The notes under the pieces were generated by a model, which saw only the letters and a list, made by a program, of their open reading frames with translations, had not been told where the DNA came from and made no database searches. Positions 21,348 through 48,312 of a stretch of 64,000 nt of DNA are shown here, piece after piece. The translations under genes and the position numbers were made by a program. Positions within the stretch are counted from its first letter, which is position 1. Every line of letters starts with the position of its first letter. Source of the DNA: Pseudoalteromonas spongiae UST010723-006 (GTDB taxonomy: Bacteria; Pseudomonadota; Gammaproteobacteria; Enterobacterales; Alteromonadaceae); the NCBI RefSeq assembly GCF_000238255.3, contig NZ_CP011039.1, positions 1,661,001-1,725,000 of the forward strand. Reading direction: 5' to 3'.

Positions 21348-21449
21348 ACCTAACGCCCCACTAAGGCTGAAAACAGTTTGCTAAATTTGTGAAGCGGAGC
21401 GAAACCGAGCAAACTGTTGGCAGTTCAGCACTTCAGTGGCTTGTTAGGC
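21348..21449 (-). other. attC site of cassette 5
   Basis: This is about 102 bp between GTTAGGC (21443-21449, plus strand) and ACCTAAC (21348-21354). The interior has complementary arms AACAGTTTGCT and AGCAAACTGTT, which would form the folded attC hairpin. Confidence 0.9.
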
Positions 21450-21451
21450 AT

Positions 21452-21937
21452 CTACCAATACAAAGCCATTAGCTTGGGAAATCTTTTTATATTTTCTTCT
21501 TCATCATCAAAATCCCACTCTTCCCCCATAGAATCTTCGTTGTCAGGGACAGCACTTATCGAAATCTCTTTACCTGTTTTTTCTTCATACACTTCATCTG
21601 CGACATACCCATAAAGCTCATTTTCAATTTCGAGATCTTCACCAAGTTCGGCTAATGATTCAGGATTTTCAATTGCATTAGAATATACAACTCGTCCTTG
21701 TGAAATTAGCCCATACCTAAAATCGATAAAGCCATCATCAGAACATCCTCCACCTATGATATAAGCAGCACCCCATAGATTCCACGTGTAAGCTCTATCA
21801 AAAAAATAATCAAAATGAGTTTTAAACGAAACGATTTCTTCAGGAGTTAATTTTTCTAAATTAATTCTTAAGTTATCTTCCGGTTCTTCGGAGTCTTTTC
21901 CAAGCTCGATTATTTCCCAAAATTCATTTATATCCAT
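21452..21937 (-). CDS. Cassette 5: DUF4240-domain protein
   Basis: This 161-residue acidic cytoplasmic protein has the DUF4240 hallmark: MDINEFWEIIE at the start, then a region with RAYTWNLWGAAYIIGGGCSDDGF and FRYGLISQGR. Function is unknown. The family is widespread and often lies in accessory or polymorphic-toxin-type neighbourhoods. An AAAGGAAAAT ribosome site precedes ATG 21937, 30 or so bases after the crossover. Confidence 0.85.
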   Translation of the reverse strand: MDINEFWEIIELGKDSEEPEDNLRINLEKLTPEEIVSFKTHFDYFFDRAYTWNLWGAAYIIGGGCSDDGFIDFRYGLISQGRVVYSNAIENPESLAELGEDLEIENELYGYVADEVYEEKTGKEISISAVPDNEDSMGEEWDFDDEEENIKRFPKLMALYW

Positions 21938-21962
21938 ATATTTTCCTTTGAATCGATTGAAT

Positions 21963-22067
21963 GCCTAACAACGCCTCGGTAAGCGGCGCATAAATAGTAG
22001 GCTAAAATTAGCGAGGCACGAGCGCAAGCCTACTGTTTTGCGTCCACCCTTGACCGGTTTGTTAGGC
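21963..22067 (-). other. attC site of cassette 4
   Basis: This is about 105 bp from GTTAGGC (22061-22067) to GCCTAAC (21963-21969). The arms AACAGTAGGCTTGCGCTC and ATTTTAGCCTACTATTT pair imperfectly. Its inner 60 bases are nearly the same as the attC of the lone cassette at 47107-47208, which ties the two loci to one integrase. Confidence 0.93.
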
Positions 22068-22556
22068 ATTTGTAATGACAAACTCGTGAAAGCCTTCTGT
22101 TTCAGGGGGCTCTACTTTATCAACAAGCGCCACATTTAATTTAGTAAACAAGTCACTCCAAAACTTTAATGCCAAGCTATCGTTAAAGTAGACAGCTACA
22201 TGCCATTGATTAGTTTCAGCTTGCATCAAATGTTGAACGACAAATTTGGCGATGCCCTGCTTTCGATATTTAGGAAGAACAAATATATCGGCTAATTCAG
22301 GCATTTCCTTACCCATAATCTCGGTTGGTTCAACCGTAGCAAAGCCTGCAACCTGACCAGCAACAAAAAAAAGGTAAGCGACGCATTCTTCTTCACCGCG
22401 AATTATAGAAGCAAGATATTCTTCATCAATGTCAAAGCGACCGTCTGACCCCACATCTTCTAGGTCAAACGCACTCTGGTGATATTGGTAAAACTGCCAC
22501 AACATACTTAGTGCAGCACTATCGGCAATTTCAGCTTTCCGTATTGTAATTTTCAT
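22062..22556 (-). CDS. Cassette 4: GNAT-family N-acetyltransferase
   Basis: This 164-residue GNAT enzyme transfers an acetyl group from acetyl-CoA to an unknown amine. The acetyl-CoA-binding motif is LADIFVLPKYRKQGIAKFVVQHLM (RKQGIA at about residues 98-103). The start MKITIRKAEIADSAALSMLW is typical of the fold. Such genes are frequent in integron cassettes and may act on antibiotics, toxins or metabolites. Here there is no substrate clue. ATG 22556 lies about 10 bases after the crossover with no ribosome site. Confidence 0.9.
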   Translation of the reverse strand: MKITIRKAEIADSAALSMLWQFYQYHQSAFDLEDVGSDGRFDIDEEYLASIIRGEEECVAYLFFVAGQVAGFATVEPTEIMGKEMPELADIFVLPKYRKQGIAKFVVQHLMQAETNQWHVAVYFNDSLALKFWSDLFTKLNVALVDKVEPPETEGFHEFVITNA

Positions 22557-22561
22557 TTGAT

Positions 22562-22665
22562 GCCTAACGCCGCAAATAAACGGCTAAAAATAGTTGGCTA
22601 AAATTTGTGAGGTACGAACAAAGCCAACTGTTATTTGTCCGCACTTTTAATTTGCTTTGTTAGGT
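22562..22665 (-). other. attC site of cassette 3
   Basis: This is about 104 bp from GTTAGGT (22659-22665) to GCCTAAC (22562-22568). The arms AACAGTTGGCTT and TTTTAGCCAACTATTT belong to the same family as attC4 and attC5. Confidence 0.92.
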
Positions 22666-22670
22666 GTATA

Positions 22671-22937
22671 TTACACTCTGTTTTTTAATACTAAGGGTGT
22701 AAACAGCATAGCTATTAAAACTATAAAAGCACCTACAAATCCAATGCTTTGAAGATAAGTAACACCAGAAAAGCATAAAATTATTGCTATAGCGCAAATG
22801 GCTATTTGAGAGAAACCTATAATGCGCCTTTTTCTAGCATTACCTTGACCACGAAAGACCCAAATCAAGGTGGTTGGTAAAGATACTAATAACAGAATAA
22901 GTAGTGGAAAAATTGCCCCTGCCCCTGCGTGTGTCAC
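22671..22937 (-). CDS. Cassette 3: small three-helix membrane protein
   Basis: This 88-residue protein has three hydrophobic helices (residues about 8-28, 40-58, 64-84), a basic loop (GQGNARKRR) after the first, and a C-terminal NRV. No family is recognised. The start is GTG 22937 preceded by AGGAGG, a strong ribosome site carried inside the cassette. Confidence 0.65.
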   Translation of the reverse strand: MTHAGAGAIFPLLILLLVSLPTTLIWVFRGQGNARKRRIIGFSQIAICAIAIILCFSGVTYLQSIGFVGAFIVLIAMLFTPLVLKNRV

Positions 22938-22952
22938 CTCAACCTCCTATAC

Positions 22953-23025
22953 ACCTAACGCCCGTGTAATGGGCTGGTTTGGAGCGCCAGCGGAAAACCA
23001 GTCCCGATTGACGCGTTTGTTAGCT
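22953..23025 (-). other. attC site of cassette 2
   Basis: This is a short attC (73 bp) from GTTAGCT (23019-23025) to ACCTAAC (22953-22959). The arms GGTTTTCCGCTGG / CCAGCGGAAAACC and GACTGG / CCAGTC form a compact hairpin of a different type from attC3-5. Confidence 0.9.
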
Positions 23026-23946
23026 GTATGTTTCTTCGCACTTTGCAAGAAACAACAAATTCGTCGCAGTTAAATGCAAAGTGTAACTTGCAAGGTGCTC
23101 TGGAACATTTGATATCTCAGAACCTTGACCGTGCCCACCTTCCTTATTCCTTACAGTAGGGATTCCGCTTTCCAGTAATATTCTTACTGACGAAAATTGA
23201 TTCTGGAGATATTCAGGCACTAGATTATTAGATAAACAGCTATTTATTAGCTTTTTAGCTGTGTCATTTTGACCATAAGCCCATGAATGCTTTTCGTGTA
23301 TGGCTTTCATTAGACTTTCAAAAGATTTGAGGCAGTCGTTAAGGCATTCTTTATATCGCTTATGCCTGTAATGCTCATGTGCGGAAAGGAATTCATCGTT
23401 TGAACCACGATACTCGTTAACAGAGCCTAAAAGCTGTAATACGGGCTTAACTGTCTCGGAGTGAATAAATTGCGAATCTACTCGAATCAGCTCTCCAGAT
23501 TCAAATTGGTATCCAACTCCAGACTCTTTAAATCTTGAATTTAACTCATTAATAGCATCTTCCGGTTCTTGGCTTGAAGTTGTGTATTGTTTGTAGTTGT
23601 AATAGTTATCAGCAACATAGTTATTGATGATTCGGAAACAGATTTCAATGATATCCAAACATTTCCCGTAGTCATCACAACTCAAAAAGTAATCAAGAAT
23701 AGCCTCATCATTACTTCTCGCGTGTTTTTTGAGAGAGAAAACGCCGTATTCTTTACATAAAGCTTTGTGTATAAATTCGTAAGCACCATGAGCTCTGTTT
23801 TCGTATTTATCTTGCCCGATGGTGTCTTGAATAATGTGCACTATTTGAACGCGCAAAGATTGCGGTATTTCCTCATAAACATATACGTCTGGGACTTCCC
23901 CCCGTATCTTTTTCTGTCTCTTTGAAAACAACTCAAAAATTGCCAT
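23020..23946 (-). CDS. Cassette 2: AbiJ-like abortive-infection protein with HEPN motif
   Basis: This 308-residue protein probably acts in phage defence. The N-terminal 120 residues (FSKRQKKIRGEVPDVYVYEE, IPQSLRVQIVHII) resemble the AbiJ N-terminal domain 4. The C-terminal half (residues about 195-300) resembles the Abi-C domain, with RYKECLNDCLKSFESLMKAI and PEHLASYTLHLTATNLLFL. It contains R266-N267-x4-H272, the R-N-x4-H active-site pattern of HEPN ribonucleases. The whole looks like the STM4504/CBY_0614 family. Likely mechanism by family: RNA cleavage after infection sensing, causing growth arrest. No antitoxin gene shares the cassette. Confidence 0.75.
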   Translation of the reverse strand: MAIFELFSKRQKKIRGEVPDVYVYEEIPQSLRVQIVHIIQDTIGQDKYENRAHGAYEFIHKALCKEYGVFSLKKHARSNDEAILDYFLSCDDYGKCLDIIEICFRIINNYVADNYYNYKQYTTSSQEPEDAINELNSRFKESGVGYQFESGELIRVDSQFIHSETVKPVLQLLGSVNEYRGSNDEFLSAHEHYRHKRYKECLNDCLKSFESLMKAIHEKHSWAYGQNDTAKKLINSCLSNNLVPEYLQNQFSSVRILLESGIPTVRNKEGGHGQGSEISNVPEHLASYTLHLTATNLLFLAKCEETYS

Positions 23947-23961
23947 ATTCCTTCCTTATAC

Positions 23962-24060
23962 AGCTAACGCCGGCCACAGCGGCCGGAGGTGATTGGCGAC
24001 TTTTTTGCCCCGCACAAAAGGCGACAATTGCCGGAGGTCCGTTGCTGGCCCTTGTTAAAT
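23962..24060 (-). other. attC site of cassette 1
   Basis: This is about 99 bp from GTTAAAT (24054-24060) to AGCTAAC (23962-23968). Outer arms GGCCAGCAACGG and CCGCTGTGGCC pair. It is GC-richer than the other attC sites, so this cassette probably came from a different source. The gene's stop codon lies inside the site. Confidence 0.88.
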
Positions 24061-24489: not shown

Positions 24490-24660
24490 ATTTAACAGTT
24501 TATTAAGAGGCGAGTTGCCTCTTTTTCTACCGCAACATCGCCTGTTTATCTTCAAGCCAGTTTATAACATTTGTTATAAACATTTACTAGTCATCAACTT
24601 AGCTGAATAACTCTTCATAGTTAACTGGTAAAAAGAGGCAAATTGCCTGTTAATTTGATT
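24490..24660 (-). other. attI region of the integron
   Basis: The crossover G|TTAAAT of the first cassette is at 24490-24496. To its right lies a block (24493-24548) that recurs with one mismatch at 46615-46670. The region holds two palindromes, AGGCGAGTTGCCT (24508-24520) and AGGCAAATTGCCT (24636-24648), 128 bp apart. It also holds a near-perfect 22-bp inverted repeat at 24560-24581 (GTTTATAAC with GTTATAAAC). The TATAAA within it could be the -10 box of the cassette promoter. The direction is leftward into the array. Confidence 0.85.
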
Positions 24661-24678
24661 AAGGAGGAAAAACTGCAA

Positions 24679-24698
24679 TACTGTATATAATTACAGTA
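24679..24698 (+). promoter_or_regulatory. LexA (SOS) box of the integrase gene
   Basis: TACTGTATATAATTACAGTA is a complete LexA box (CTGT-N8-ACAG with matching flanks), 18 bases before the intI start codon. LexA would repress the integrase until DNA damage, as shown for vibrio and mobile integrons. Confidence 0.93.
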
Positions 24699-24716: not shown

Positions 24717-25685
24717 ATGAAAACACGTTCTCCATTTTTAAATTTAGTCATTGAGGAAATGCATTCTAAAAGATATGCAAAACAAACAATCGAATCATAT
24801 ATTCATTGGATAGCTGCCTATATTAATTTTCACAATAAACGTCATCCAGCTTCAATGGGAGATACCGAAGTTGAAACGTTTTTAAACTACTTAACAGTAC
24901 AACGAAATCTTGCAGCAAATACACAAGCACTTGCTCTAAATGCTATTGTCTTTATGTATCGGCACATTATTAAACAGTCGCTTTCGATAAAATTAAATTT
25001 TATTAAGAGTAATCGCCAACAAAAGCTTCCATCCATTTTAAGTCGTGAAGAAGTTCGCTTGTTACTTTCAAATTTAACTAAGCGGAATTATTTAGTTGCG
25101 AGTTTAATGTATGGCAGTGGCTTAAGAAGTAGAGAAGTGGTTAACTTGAGAATTCAGGACATTGATTTTGATTATCTCTGTGTGCGTATTTGGAACGGTA
25201 AAGGAAACAAGCACCGCATAGTCACACTTGCTAGAGAGCTTATTCCTTTATTAAGGAATCAGATAATTCAAGTCAATGAGTATTTAAAACGCGATTTAAA
25301 CAACAAACTATTTGCAGGGGTATGGATGCCAACTGCCCTTGCTAAAAAATACCCTACAGCCAATAAGTCACTCGCGTGGCAGTTTTTGTTTCCCTCTTAT
25401 AAGTTAAGTGCTAACCCAGAAACAGGCGAAATAAGACGTCATCATTTTGATGTAAGTTGTATTCGTAAAACAATAAAACAAGCTGCTAAACAATCTGGCT
25501 TTATAAAGCTTGTAACACCACACACATTACGGCACTCCTTCGCGACTCACCTACTGCAAAGTGGTGCAGATATTCGTACTGTTCAAGCACAATTGGGGCA
25601 CAGTGATGTGCGCACCACACAAATTTATACGCATGTTTTACAACAAGGAGCGAACGGTGTGATTAGTCCCTTGTCGCATTTGTAA
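24717..25685 (+). CDS. intI: Integron integrase IntI
   Basis: This 322-residue tyrosine recombinase captures and shuffles gene cassettes by attI x attC and attC x attC recombination. An N-terminal SAM-like core-binding domain covers residues about 1-95. The catalytic residues are R137 (SGLRSREV), K165 region (GKGNKHR), H269 and R272 (HTLRHSFATHLL), H295 (LGHSDV) and Y304 (TTQIYTHV). The integron-specific extra patch is present at about 205-243 (ALAKKYPTANKSLAWQFLFPS then RRHH), which separates IntI from XerC/D and phage integrases. It appears intact. Expression is probably SOS-induced through the LexA box. It converges on the next gene. Confidence 0.97.
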   Translation: MKTRSPFLNLVIEEMHSKRYAKQTIESYIHWIAAYINFHNKRHPASMGDTEVETFLNYLTVQRNLAANTQALALNAIVFMYRHIIKQSLSIKLNFIKSNRQQKLPSILSREEVRLLLSNLTKRNYLVASLMYGSGLRSREVVNLRIQDIDFDYLCVRIWNGKGNKHRIVTLARELIPLLRNQIIQVNEYLKRDLNNKLFAGVWMPTALAKKYPTANKSLAWQFLFPSYKLSANPETGEIRRHHFDVSCIRKTIKQAAKQSGFIKLVTPHTLRHSFATHLLQSGADIRTVQAQLGHSDVRTTQIYTHVLQQGANGVISPLSHL

Positions 25686-28458: not shown

Positions 28459-28776
28459 CTCAATGAAAACTTGTTAACAATTTTTTAAACAATTTATAAC
28501 CAATTGTTTTTTGTGAGTTTATTTTTTGAGCAAAAATTTCCTTTTTTTGATTAATTTAACTACAATTATTAATACTTTTTCACTTCTCCCTATGAAATGA
28601 TCAAGTTTGTAAGTTAGCGCACGGCTCATTAAATGAGCCATTCCCCTAAGCCCAGGACAATGTGGATTGGTCCTGGGCGATTTTTATTGGGCGTTTGTAA
28701 AAGCGCAACAAACTTGGCTTAAGCCCCGTATTTTGCAACTTTTCAGCGGTATTGAAGGTTAAAATCGGGGCTTAAT
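28459..28776. ncRNA. Intergenic region with two tandem hairpins (terminator or possible small RNA)
   Basis: This 318-bp region has no gene. GGCTCATT-AA-ATGAGCC (28623-28639) is followed 11 bases later by CCCAGGAC (28651-28658) / GTCCTGGG (28670-28677) and then CGATTTTTATT. The second hairpin is a good rightward terminator. The first is an extra perfect stem, not needed for termination of rsmF, so a small RNA of about 80-120 nt ending here is possible. The AT-rich part at 28490-28590 could carry a promoter. Not confirmed. Confidence 0.4.
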
Positions 28777-46328: not shown

Positions 46329-46495
46329 TCTGAAATTTAGAGCGAATTGAAATAGTAACTCTTCAGCTAGCATTAATTGTTGCAGCTAATATTTGTTCTT
46401 GTAGTTTCTATGAATAGGTTTGGACTTCTCCTGACAGGCCGCCATGAGCGAATAGCAGCCGTTGAATAATCTATCCATTTATTAATGATTATATC
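46329..46495. other. Intergenic region before the integrase-less attI
   Basis: I see no gene here and no translated similarity to IntI, so an integrase relic is not visible. The LexA box of the main locus is also missing. The far right end (CCCCCTTAAT before AACAGGC) still resembles the corresponding place beside the true attI. Confidence 0.5.
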
Positions 46496-46675
46496 CCCCT
46501 TAATATTATTAACAGGCAATTTGCCTGTTTTTTACAACTGATAAAATGTCAATTTTCAAATAACTATCTGACTAGTAACAACTAATTATTAGTGTTATAA
46601 ATTGCTTCAGTATGTAAACAGGCGATGTTGCGGTAGAAAAAGAGGCAACTTGCCTCTTAATAAACTGTTATATGC
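46496..46675 (+). other. Second attI-like region without integrase
   Basis: The block 46615-46670 has 55 of 56 bases equal to the attI next to intI and ends in the crossover GTTATATGC (46667-46675). It carries the same two palindromes, AGGCAATTTGCCT (46514-46526) and AGGCAACTTGCCT (46643-46655), 129 bp apart (128 bp in the main attI). It has the shared words TGACTAGTAA and GTTATAAA at the same distances. It is oriented rightward, opposite to the main attI, and no integrase gene is next to it. Confidence 0.88.
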
Positions 46676-46687
46676 TCAGGAGGAGCA

Positions 46688-47104
46688 ATGAGATTACTTC
46701 TAATTTTATCGTTCTTTTCATCTCTTGCATTTGCACAAGACAAATCAAAAGTTGAACAGTTAATTGAAGCTACAAACGAAAATTGCAAAGCTTCAGTAAA
46801 AGAAATAGATAATGCACGTATAACTGATTTTAGAGCACATGTTTTAAGACTTACTGTAGATGATATTTTTTACAAACTATCCCTTCGGGAAAGGTTAATT
46901 CGAGAGGGTGCAATTGAGTCTCAAAAATATTTAGACGATGATTTATTTTCACGTATTTATTACAACGTAGAAAAAATGGCTAATAATCCCGAATATTCTC
47001 AAAACTTAAAATTTATCAGAGAGCAACTAGATACTCAGCCTTTAGAATTAGAAAAAGGTTTAAGTGAAAAGTTAAATAGTAAATTTATTAGCGTAGGTTT
47101 ATGA
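46688..47104 (+). CDS. Lone cassette: small secreted protein, unknown function
   Basis: This 138-residue protein has a signal peptide (RLLLILSFFSSLAFAQD, cleavage after about residue 16) and a helical, charged mature part (VEQLIEATNENCKASVKEID, LSLRERLIREGAIESQKYL). There is one cysteine and no known domain. A strong ribosome site (CAGGAGGAGCA) lies between the crossover and the ATG. It is a complete cassette: the start GTTATATGC is matched by GCATATAAC at the left end of its attC. It is the only cassette at this locus. Confidence 0.75.
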   Translation: MRLLLILSFFSSLAFAQDKSKVEQLIEATNENCKASVKEIDNARITDFRAHVLRLTVDDIFYKLSLRERLIREGAIESQKYLDDDLFSRIYYNVEKMANNPEYSQNLKFIREQLDTQPLELEKGLSEKLNSKFISVGL

Positions 47105-47106
47105 GC

Positions 47107-47208
47107 ATATAACAAGCCAATTAAACCGTGGACGCAAAACAGTAGGCTTGCGCTCCTCCGTCGCTTATTTTAGCCTACTATTTTTCGCCGTTTATTTAGG
47201 CGTTACGA
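47107..47208 (+). other. attC site of the lone cassette
   Basis: This is 102 bp from ATATAAC (47107-47113) to GTTACGA (47202-47208), with arms AACAGTAGGCTTGCGC and TTTTAGCCTACTATTTTT. The interior closely matches attC4 of the main array (the shared run includes TGGACGCAAAACAGTAGGC). Confidence 0.93.
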
Positions 47209-47239
47209 ATGGCAGTTGTTGGCACAAATCGGCTATTCA

Positions 47240-47279
47240 CTGCCAGATTTGATTCAGCTCTGTAAATCAAATCTGGCAG
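47240..47279. repeat. Perfect 15-bp inverted repeat after the lone attC
   Basis: CTGCCAGATTTGATT (47240-47254) and AATCAAATCTGGCAG (47265-47279) flank a 10-base loop. There is no T-run on either side, so it is not a typical intrinsic terminator, although it lies after the yejK stop. Confidence 0.7.
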
Positions 47280-47301
47280 ATCGAGTTAAAACTTATTCAC
47301 G

Positions 47302-48312
47302 TTAGTTTTCTTCAAAGAAACGCTCTAATTGGTCTTTCAAGTTAGGTGGAGTTCCTTTAATGGTTAAGGTGTCGCTGTACTTATCATATAAAACACGTTC
47401 ACCTAAATGCTTGCGCTCAAAACTCACACTTACACCACTGCCTTGACCAGAAAATTTCACCATAGACGTTACCGTCTTTTTATCAACTGGGAATGACTCT
47501 TCTAAATCGTAGGCTTGCTCTTTATAAAAGCTATCAAAGCTTACTTCATCATCTTTACTTATGGTGCTTGATAACTGTGATACGTCAGCATCGCTGCCAG
47601 TAGCAACACAGTCTGAGCAATAATCAAAAACTTGCTTGCGTAAGTCATCTTTTTCGGTTTTATCAAATTGTCTATCCGATAAATAGTCTTCAACCGCCGA
47701 TAACATAGCTTGCGATTGTTGGCGCGCATCAATCCCCTCTTCACAGCCTAGAAAGTCTAAGAAGAAATCGGCAACTTTACGCCCTGCACGCCCTTTAATA
47801 AATGAAATATAACGGTTGTCTTCAAGCGCTGTTGCCATACCGTTAAGATCGATACGTGCCGCTAACTGCATTTTCGCGATATCTAAATGACGCGACGAAG
47901 TAAGGTCGAGCTCTTGGTTAATCGAGTAATGCTCTTTTACATTTACCAATGCAATCATCACATAGTCGTCGGCAACAAAACGGTAGTGACAAAAAATAAG
48001 GTAACCCGTTTCATTAAACGCGTATTTGTTTAATTCTTCTTTTAAAACCTCGGCAGCCTGTTCAGTTAAATGATAAAAATGCATTTCACCTTGACGATAA
48101 CTTTGAATACTCGAACTTACCACGCCGTTTTTCTCTGGACTAAAACCGCAAAAGCCTTTTCCTGGCTTACCGTTGTAGGCATGGTGTAACTGATCGATAA
48201 ACACATTAACCTTATCGTTGACTGGCATTTCATCATTACGAAGATGAATTTCAACTGTTTCGTCTTTTTTGTCGACATAGTGAACGACGAGTCTTTCTAC
48301 TTGCACTGTCAT
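47302..48312 (-). CDS. yejK: Nucleoid-associated protein YejK (NdpA)
   Basis: YejK is a nucleoid-associated protein that interacts with topoisomerases by family knowledge. The 336-residue protein starts TVQVERLVVHYVDKK and has KGFCGFSPEKNGV, YLIFCHYRFVADDY and FIKGRAGRKVADFFLDFLGCEEG. It is divergent from yejL, as in other Gammaproteobacteria. Confidence 0.93.
   Translation of the reverse strand: MTVQVERLVVHYVDKKDETVEIHLRNDEMPVNDKVNVFIDQLHHAYNGKPGKGFCGFSPEKNGVVSSSIQSYRQGEMHFYHLTEQAAEVLKEELNKYAFNETGYLIFCHYRFVADDYVMIALVNVKEHYSINQELDLTSSRHLDIAKMQLAARIDLNGMATALEDNRYISFIKGRAGRKVADFFLDFLGCEEGIDARQQSQAMLSAVEDYLSDRQFDKTEKDDLRKQVFDYCSDCVATGSDADVSQLSSTISKDDEVSFDSFYKEQAYDLEESFPVDKKTVTSMVKFSGQGSGVSVSFERKHLGERVLYDKYSDTLTIKGTPPNLKDQLERFFEEN

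Follow-up and report, generated by a model that had tools for sequence, protein, structure and literature searches.

A putative transposon-borne attI site without an adjoining integrase gene in Pseudoalteromonas spongiae, and related orphan attI sites in the genus

Organization of the locus

The window, that is, the whole 64,000-nucleotide stretch of Pseudoalteromonas spongiae DNA that was analysed, corresponds to C1:1661001-1725000 of the two-contig genome G000. It contains a complete integron and, 22 kb away, an attI site with a single gene cassette and no neighbouring integrase gene, which is called orphan here. The orphan site is located between rne and yejK, both named from NCBIfam. The features of the two loci, in window coordinates, are as follows.

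Resident complete integron
21348..24060, minus strand: main cassette array, with five attC matches, three of which are seeds of the attC model
24490..24548, minus strand: attI of the resident complete integron
24681..24696, no strand: LexA-box-like CTGTATATAATTACAG in the intI promoter region, the single CTGT-N8-ACAG in the window
24717..25685, plus strand: intI, integron integrase of 322 residues (TIGR02249, 445 bits against a cut-off of 265)

Orphan platform
46371..46377, no strand: left copy of the target-site duplication, CATTAAT (the empty site in the relative G101 is CGTTAGT)
46378..47299, plus strand: inserted element with TG...CA termini, a putative mini-transposon of 922 bp, containing the orphan attI and the cassette
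46378..46466, plus strand: left end of the element, divided by eye into a terminal repeat (46378-46404) and two sub-terminal repeats
46494..46614, plus strand: attI leader, homologous to the intI-attI spacer, containing the palindrome AACAGGCAATTTGCCTGTT
46615..46670, plus strand: orphan attI core, crossover after G46667
46668..47202, plus strand: single gene cassette, whose start TTATATGC pairs with GCATATAA of its own attC
46688..47104, plus strand: cassette open reading frame, 138 residues
47107..47208, plus strand: attC of the cassette (cassette boundary at 47202), 104.9 bits with the attC covariance model
47203..47299, plus strand: right arm, with TTACGAATGGCAGTTGTTGGCAC, a stem-loop and the terminus ...ACTTATTCA
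47300..47306, no strand: right copy of the target-site duplication, CGTTAGT

The initial annotation of this DNA held that the orphan attI repeats the core of the attI beside intI and that a cassette was captured there with neither an integrase nor a LexA box next to it, and these claims are borne out. The alignment of the two attI regions, which the annotation had proposed as a check, gave agreement of the cores in 55 of 56 bases, and in 57 of 59 over a longer block, on opposite strands. In a search of the window's own genome (G000), positions 46494-46675 matched the minus strand of 24490-24668 with 77% identity and an E value of 2.5e-30; the similarity of the leaders, which are 64% identical, is weaker than that of the cores. 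The best match in a tblastn search with IntI over 42-52 kb had an E value of only 7.6, and the sole CTGT-N8-ACAG of the window, which is taken here to be a LexA-box-like motif, begins at 24681, beside intI. The boundaries of the cassette coincide with the crossovers after G46667 and G47202. Insertion into secondary attG-type sites is a known activity of integrases according to the available parts of two papers (PMC12901181, PMC12444791), and the cassette could in principle have entered such a site that resembles attI by chance. However, the 55/56 identity, the homologous leader and the dispersed family of arms described below leave this reading a negligible probability, and it is regarded as refuted because of the attI homology.

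Two further sequence features of the cassette are to be weighed with care. The 9-mer pair formed by GTTATATGC at the cassette start and GCATATAAC inside its attC is weak evidence on its own, because two copies of the 9-mer are also present in 16 of 100 shuffled windows. The score of 104.9 bits is not independent, because the attC of the window is one of the 16 seeds from which the covariance model was built. The model was adopted because one attC finder missed known sites and a second one gave many false matches in coding DNA; applied to 45 loci of the genus, it matched 33, and the 12 that it missed include L137, the G026 orphan with an altered crossover, and the type-4 carrier L337. The middle of the window attC resembles the attC of cassette 4 of the main array, with 93% identity over 56 nucleotides. 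The window orphan has one attC, and some other orphan loci have several. The protein of 138 residues has no family in Pfam or NCBIfam, and a crude sigma-70 scan of the attI leader returned zero promoters.

The palindromes beside the attI crossover (24502-24526) and near the intI promoter (24630-24654) have the same sequence within one integron. They vary between integrons, where GAGGCAA, TGCGC, ACGACCC and AGGAC types were distinguished by eye (also at loci L016, L018, L023, L029, L030 and L038), as if a single factor, perhaps IntI, bound the two sites and co-evolved with them. The main array includes, at 23020-23946 (minus strand), a cassette whose product has an AbiJ N-terminal domain 4; it is possibly a phage-defence gene. 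The window also includes the SdsR/RyeB small RNA at 28583-28686 (plus strand, 58.5 bits).

Insertion between rne and yejK and the carrier element

The nearest relatives were picked by YejK identity among 108 genomes of the genus: G101 (99%), G015 (97%) and G087 (95%), with the rest at 76% or less. The rne-yejK spacer is short and empty in all three, so that the search of relatives for orphan attI copies at this place, which the initial annotation had suggested, found none in them. Relative to G101, the homology on the left runs through CATTAAT and that on the right begins at CGTTAGT, which bounds the inserted DNA at 46378 and 47299. The interval 46496-47208 proposed initially covers the platform but misses these two ends. 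As judged from the comparison of genomes, the rne-yejK copy is an insertion that occurred after the split of the lineage from its closest sequenced relatives.

The left and right copies of the duplication flanking the window element agree in five of seven bases, and other elements with matching ends have perfect 7-bp duplications. Element ends were paired by simple mismatch counts, which yielded 16 candidates: six with a 7/7 duplication, three with 5/7, including that of the window, and seven with three or fewer matching bases. Among the low-scoring pairs, one mispairs the left end of the window element itself, and further ones may be spurious or degenerate. The chance of a 7/7 duplication between random 7-mers is 0.00034. 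The elements with perfect duplications are the following.

L130: 2589 bp, type-1 attI
L352: 2846 bp, type-2 attI
L102: 1555 bp, type-4 attI
L105, L347 and L358: no attI detected

The target-site duplication, at 5/7 in the window and 7/7 in the six sister elements, together with the empty site, is as expected of a miniature transposon. Its ends, TGTAGTAGCTC.../...ACTTATTCA, are each conserved between copies, whereas the likeness of left to right, judged by eye, is weak; they may resemble binding sites of the TnsB or Tni type. Copies of the left end occur at further sites in the genus. The core of the right arm, with up to three mismatches, is present in 17 of the 108 genomes, and by eye many of its copies sit after an attC and at least four do not. 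One element, L105 (G115 C1), is 648 bp long and combines carrier-type ends and a perfect 7-bp duplication with short antisense open reading frames, which by eye may be cargo of the toxin-antitoxin type.

A Mu-type transposase (PF09299) was considered as the mover of the elements; it has seven matches in four of ten genomes, none with carrier ends in the surrounding 16-18 kb. The notion that TTACGAATG is a generic repeat that cassettes enter was set aside as the main reading, because the orphans studied have attI arms on their left.

Orphan attI copies in the source genome and the genus

Types of attI were assigned by pattern in a set with one genome per species and many draft assemblies. The source genome G000 has about ten attI copies without intI, two of them decayed, which belong to three types and are distributed over both chromosomes, as against one gene above the IntI cut-off. 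The initial description of a two-platform integron with one nearby outpost is therefore not supported in that form; moreover, the window copy sits in a mobile element. The distance of 22 kb to the main integron looks incidental, because other copies are on the second contig.

Type-1 arms occur in G000, besides the main site, at the window orphan, at C2:1549066, where the orphan has several cassettes (three attC matches in L136), and as decayed copies at C1:1777300 and C2:161708. The two decayed copies (L010 5301-5389 and L011 4709-4790) each precede a single gene, keep part of the leader stretch at 79% identity and no longer match across the attI crossover; perhaps what has been kept is the promoter of a cassette gene that became fixed. 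Four places in G000 fit the pattern of type-2 attI (GGTAGAAAAACGCGCGATTNGCTCGCTATAAACATG|TTA, with variants), two further places are type-2-like, and type-4 attI has two pattern copies.

Beyond the shared end repeat, type-1 arms were found in six of the 108 genomes (G000, G026, G066, G087, G101 and G015, those of G015 being broken at contig ends). When ten of them, the main one and nine orphans, were aligned to the window copy, the cores were 93-100% and the leaders 64-90% identical. G000 alone has an intI linked to a type-1 site; among the matches listed, none was found in the other five genomes with type-1 orphans. The attI beside intI is of another type in G015 and G101, and G101 also has a second one, of type 4. 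No type-1 core is present in the sequence preceding the IntI of G087 (43% identity), no type-1 arm adjoins that of G066 (45%), and nothing in G026 passes the IntI family cut-off. At L139 (G101 C85), a type-4 attI adjoins a distant IntI of 38% identity, and therefore a second integrase lineage seems to own orphan attI copies. In the same genome, the type-2 orphan at C6:46872 has as a neighbour, at a distance of about 1 kb, a frame for a tyrosine recombinase of 400 residues (C6:47810-48304), well below the IntI cut-off.

The type-2 pattern has 34 matches in 22 of the 108 genomes, of which seven adjoin intI or a fragment of it and 27 do not, with IntI taken from the matches listed. A BLAST search with a type-2 arm, in which up to seven candidates per genome were scored, gave at least 32 matches with the orphan-type outer leader (query start at or before 30, end at or after 220), one of them the place of the query itself; among the matches listed, none of these has IntI within a few kilobases. 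Both tallies were read from result tables. Orphan leaders share an outer sequence that is missing from the intI-linked copies.

These comparisons bear on the possibility that the window copy is a decayed second integron, in which a complete integron at rne-yejK lost its intI. Such decay has occurred elsewhere: the site G103 C38, one of the at least 32 outer-leader matches, aligns on both sides with the integron of G119 without most of the intI region and stands where G119 has an intI fragment. Loss of intI is therefore a second origin of orphans. Moreover, at L154 and L156 a LexA-like box is still present upstream of attI, with no IntI there among the matches listed. At rne-yejK, by contrast, there is no IntI similarity or remnant, and the outer sequence of the orphan leaders is foreign to intI-linked copies. 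In view of the empty spacer in the three closest relatives, the window copy is not regarded as a decayed integron, and this explanation, which by the initial annotation would have refuted its reading, is very unlikely.

A general attI pattern, searched across the named genomes, has at least 122 matches in at least 120 loci, and 65 of the matches have a downstream attC on the same strand. Fifty-one of these 65 have at least 1500 nucleotides upstream or a visible intI; IntI similarity lies within 3 kb of 17 and is missing from that range at 34. The 34 include sites in Thalassotalea, Psychrosphaera, Alteromonas, Bowmanella, Catenovulum and Colwellia. The 57 matches without attC were left out; some are in unrelated phyla and probably due to chance, and some are clearly attI-like. 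Related orphan attI sites thus occur in many Pseudoalteromonas genomes and in some other Alteromonadales. At L259 3902-5446 (P. luteoviolacea MMG009), two attI-pattern sites stand in tandem on the same strand, 1.5 kb apart, in cassette-bearing DNA, and IntI similarity is absent within 3 kb of them.

Cassette turnover and sharing

The sequences following the crossover were compared among 59 attI copies, orphan and intI-linked, with a likeness threshold of a blastn E value of 1e-8 over at least 100 bp. Only the copies of G111 and G112 are alike in the first 450 bp past the crossover. In three orthologous pairs of orphans, the sequences diverge within about 10 nucleotides of the G|TT crossover. 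The orphan of G000 at C2:725 kb and that of G101 on C15 share 6.8 kb at 94.3% identity before the crossover and 4.5 kb at 94.1% on the far side, and between these flanks they contain different arrays of 336 and 2731 bp. Those on G071 C13 and G103 C36 are 96.0% identical over 780 bp up to the crossover, after which different cassettes of 1105 and 916 bp are followed by a common one. The copies of G010 and G111, compared on the left side, show 96.5% identity along the 482 bp that lead to the crossover and differ from there on.

It is conceivable that the element transposed with its cassette already aboard and that the orphan attI is inert cargo that takes no cassettes. Elements move any DNA between their ends, L105 lacks a detected attI, and G111 and G112 have the first cassette in common. 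However, no other pair among the 59 copies begins alike, and all three orthologous pairs differ from the crossover onward, which makes inert cargo unlikely, although it may apply to the single window copy.

Cassettes are also common to intI-linked and orphan arrays. A 398-bp cassette is 100% identical at non-orthologous orphans of G027, where it has the first place, and G011, where it has a later one, and a copy in G103 is 99.0% identical; the left-side match of the three sites is confined to the attI arms. At the DNA level, what stands second in the G011 integron stands first among the cassettes at G103 C38 (96.1% identity over 563 bp), and part of a cassette of the G011 integron is found in G005 (97.3% over 225 bp).

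The exchange could also have resulted from homologous recombination between dispersed repeats, which would swap arrays without an integrase. The units are flanked by repeats, and at a fourth locus the attI is of type 1 in G101 and of type 2 in G000, with downstream cassettes common to both. Integrases above the family cut-off were found in nine of the 16 genomes searched and not in the other seven, which include G071 and G103, both members of one exchanging pair. However, identity stops close to G|TT in all three pairs, and one cassette shared between sites starts exactly at the crossover. In the two pairs compared on the right (G000/G101 and G071/G103), identity returns at the next G|TT or shortly ahead of it, within attC ends that are similar; in the former, BLAST carries the right identity some 45 nucleotides into these ends. 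Homologous recombination is therefore quite unlikely as the source of the turnover, although repeat-to-repeat recombination may also reshape orphan loci. In the seven genomes without IntI above the cut-off, the enzyme would have been lost or have come from outside.

Proposed mechanism

The preferred reading, to which a probability of about 0.7 is assigned, is that the window feature is a transposon-borne attI outpost filled by an integrase acting in trans, and that the genus contains many such outposts. A small non-autonomous TG...CA element with an attI leader and core and no intI would have inserted between rne and yejK, presumably moved by a transposase. An integron integrase supplied in trans would then have placed the cassette at the crossover of the orphan attI, and the leader may supply a promoter. 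Outposts of several attI types would swap cassettes with each other and with complete integrons, and attI copies would spread by mini-elements and partly by the loss of intI from old integrons. The insertion, the ends and duplications of the sister elements, the missing intI, the turnover at orthologous orphans and the same cassette at non-orthologous sites are direct outcomes of sequence comparison. Service of the window orphan by the resident integrase is plausible, given the same attI core and the likeness of the cassette's attC to one of the main array. As a counterweight, a type-1-linked intI was not found, among the matches listed, in five of the six genomes with type-1 orphans, and many host genomes lack a cognate integrase. 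The evidence of turnover, moreover, comes from other sites, as an ortholog of the window copy was not present in the genomes compared.

Different captured genes at one scattered site in sister species make the capture system seem distributed rather than a single locus. In its broadest form, for which the odds are about even, the proposal is that Pseudoalteromonas, and probably other Alteromonadales, have a distributed integron, in which one SOS-controlled integrase, resident or visiting, would serve many independently transposing attI outposts on both chromosomes as a genome-wide network. If so, capture in the first position would be possible at many loci, with many promoter-near positions offered at once, and cassette exchange in integrase-free genomes could be explained. 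The orthologous orphan pairs make the outpost idea directly testable.

Comparison with known systems

No description of dispersed attI sites without intI was found in the literature searched, which covered few subscription journals. The closest known arrangements are CALINs and SALINs, in which, as at the window orphan, cassettes with attC have no intI near them. According to the available text of the respective papers, IntI can mobilise CALINs in trans (PMC12444791), and SALINs are reported in Shewanella (PMC9229058). Arrays of the window type differ from both in being headed by an attI with a leader. The window orphan, like a CALIN, has no integrase, but it has one attC where CALINs are defined by at least two. 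As far as the accessible description of IntegronFinder 2.0 goes, its detection of attI is confined to class 1 and its default for a CALIN is at least two attC (PMC9024848), so that orphan attI sites would either be recorded as ordinary CALINs or escape detection, and may be common yet unseen. If the proposed reading is true, mobile attI sites without intI would be an active origin for some CALINs. Compared with a complete integron, the window orphan has the attI with its G|TT and a cassette there and lacks an adjoining intI.

Like the carriers described here, IMUs and TIMEs are non-autonomous miniature elements. The cargo of an IMU is an integron fragment. In those systems, two Tn3-derived miniature copies bound the cargo, whereas here there is one element with 7-bp duplications and an attI with turnover; the window orphan is bounded by one left and one right end, and the two-copy arrangement is absent. 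According to the part of the report available, a transposase acting in trans mobilised an IMU composite whose cargo included a resistance gene (PMC13367494). An attI apart from its normal place is described, in the accessible text, for Delta-attI-type cassettes of class 1 and 2 integrons (PMC12901181). In those cassettes, which sit within a complete integron, part of an attI has taken the place of the attC, whereas here the attI has its leader and stands at the head of an array in another part of the genome. Mobile integrons of classes 1 and 2, which reside on Tn402- or Tn7-like transposons, are transposon-borne attI platforms as well; they carry intI, however, whereas the attI carriers described here travel without it.
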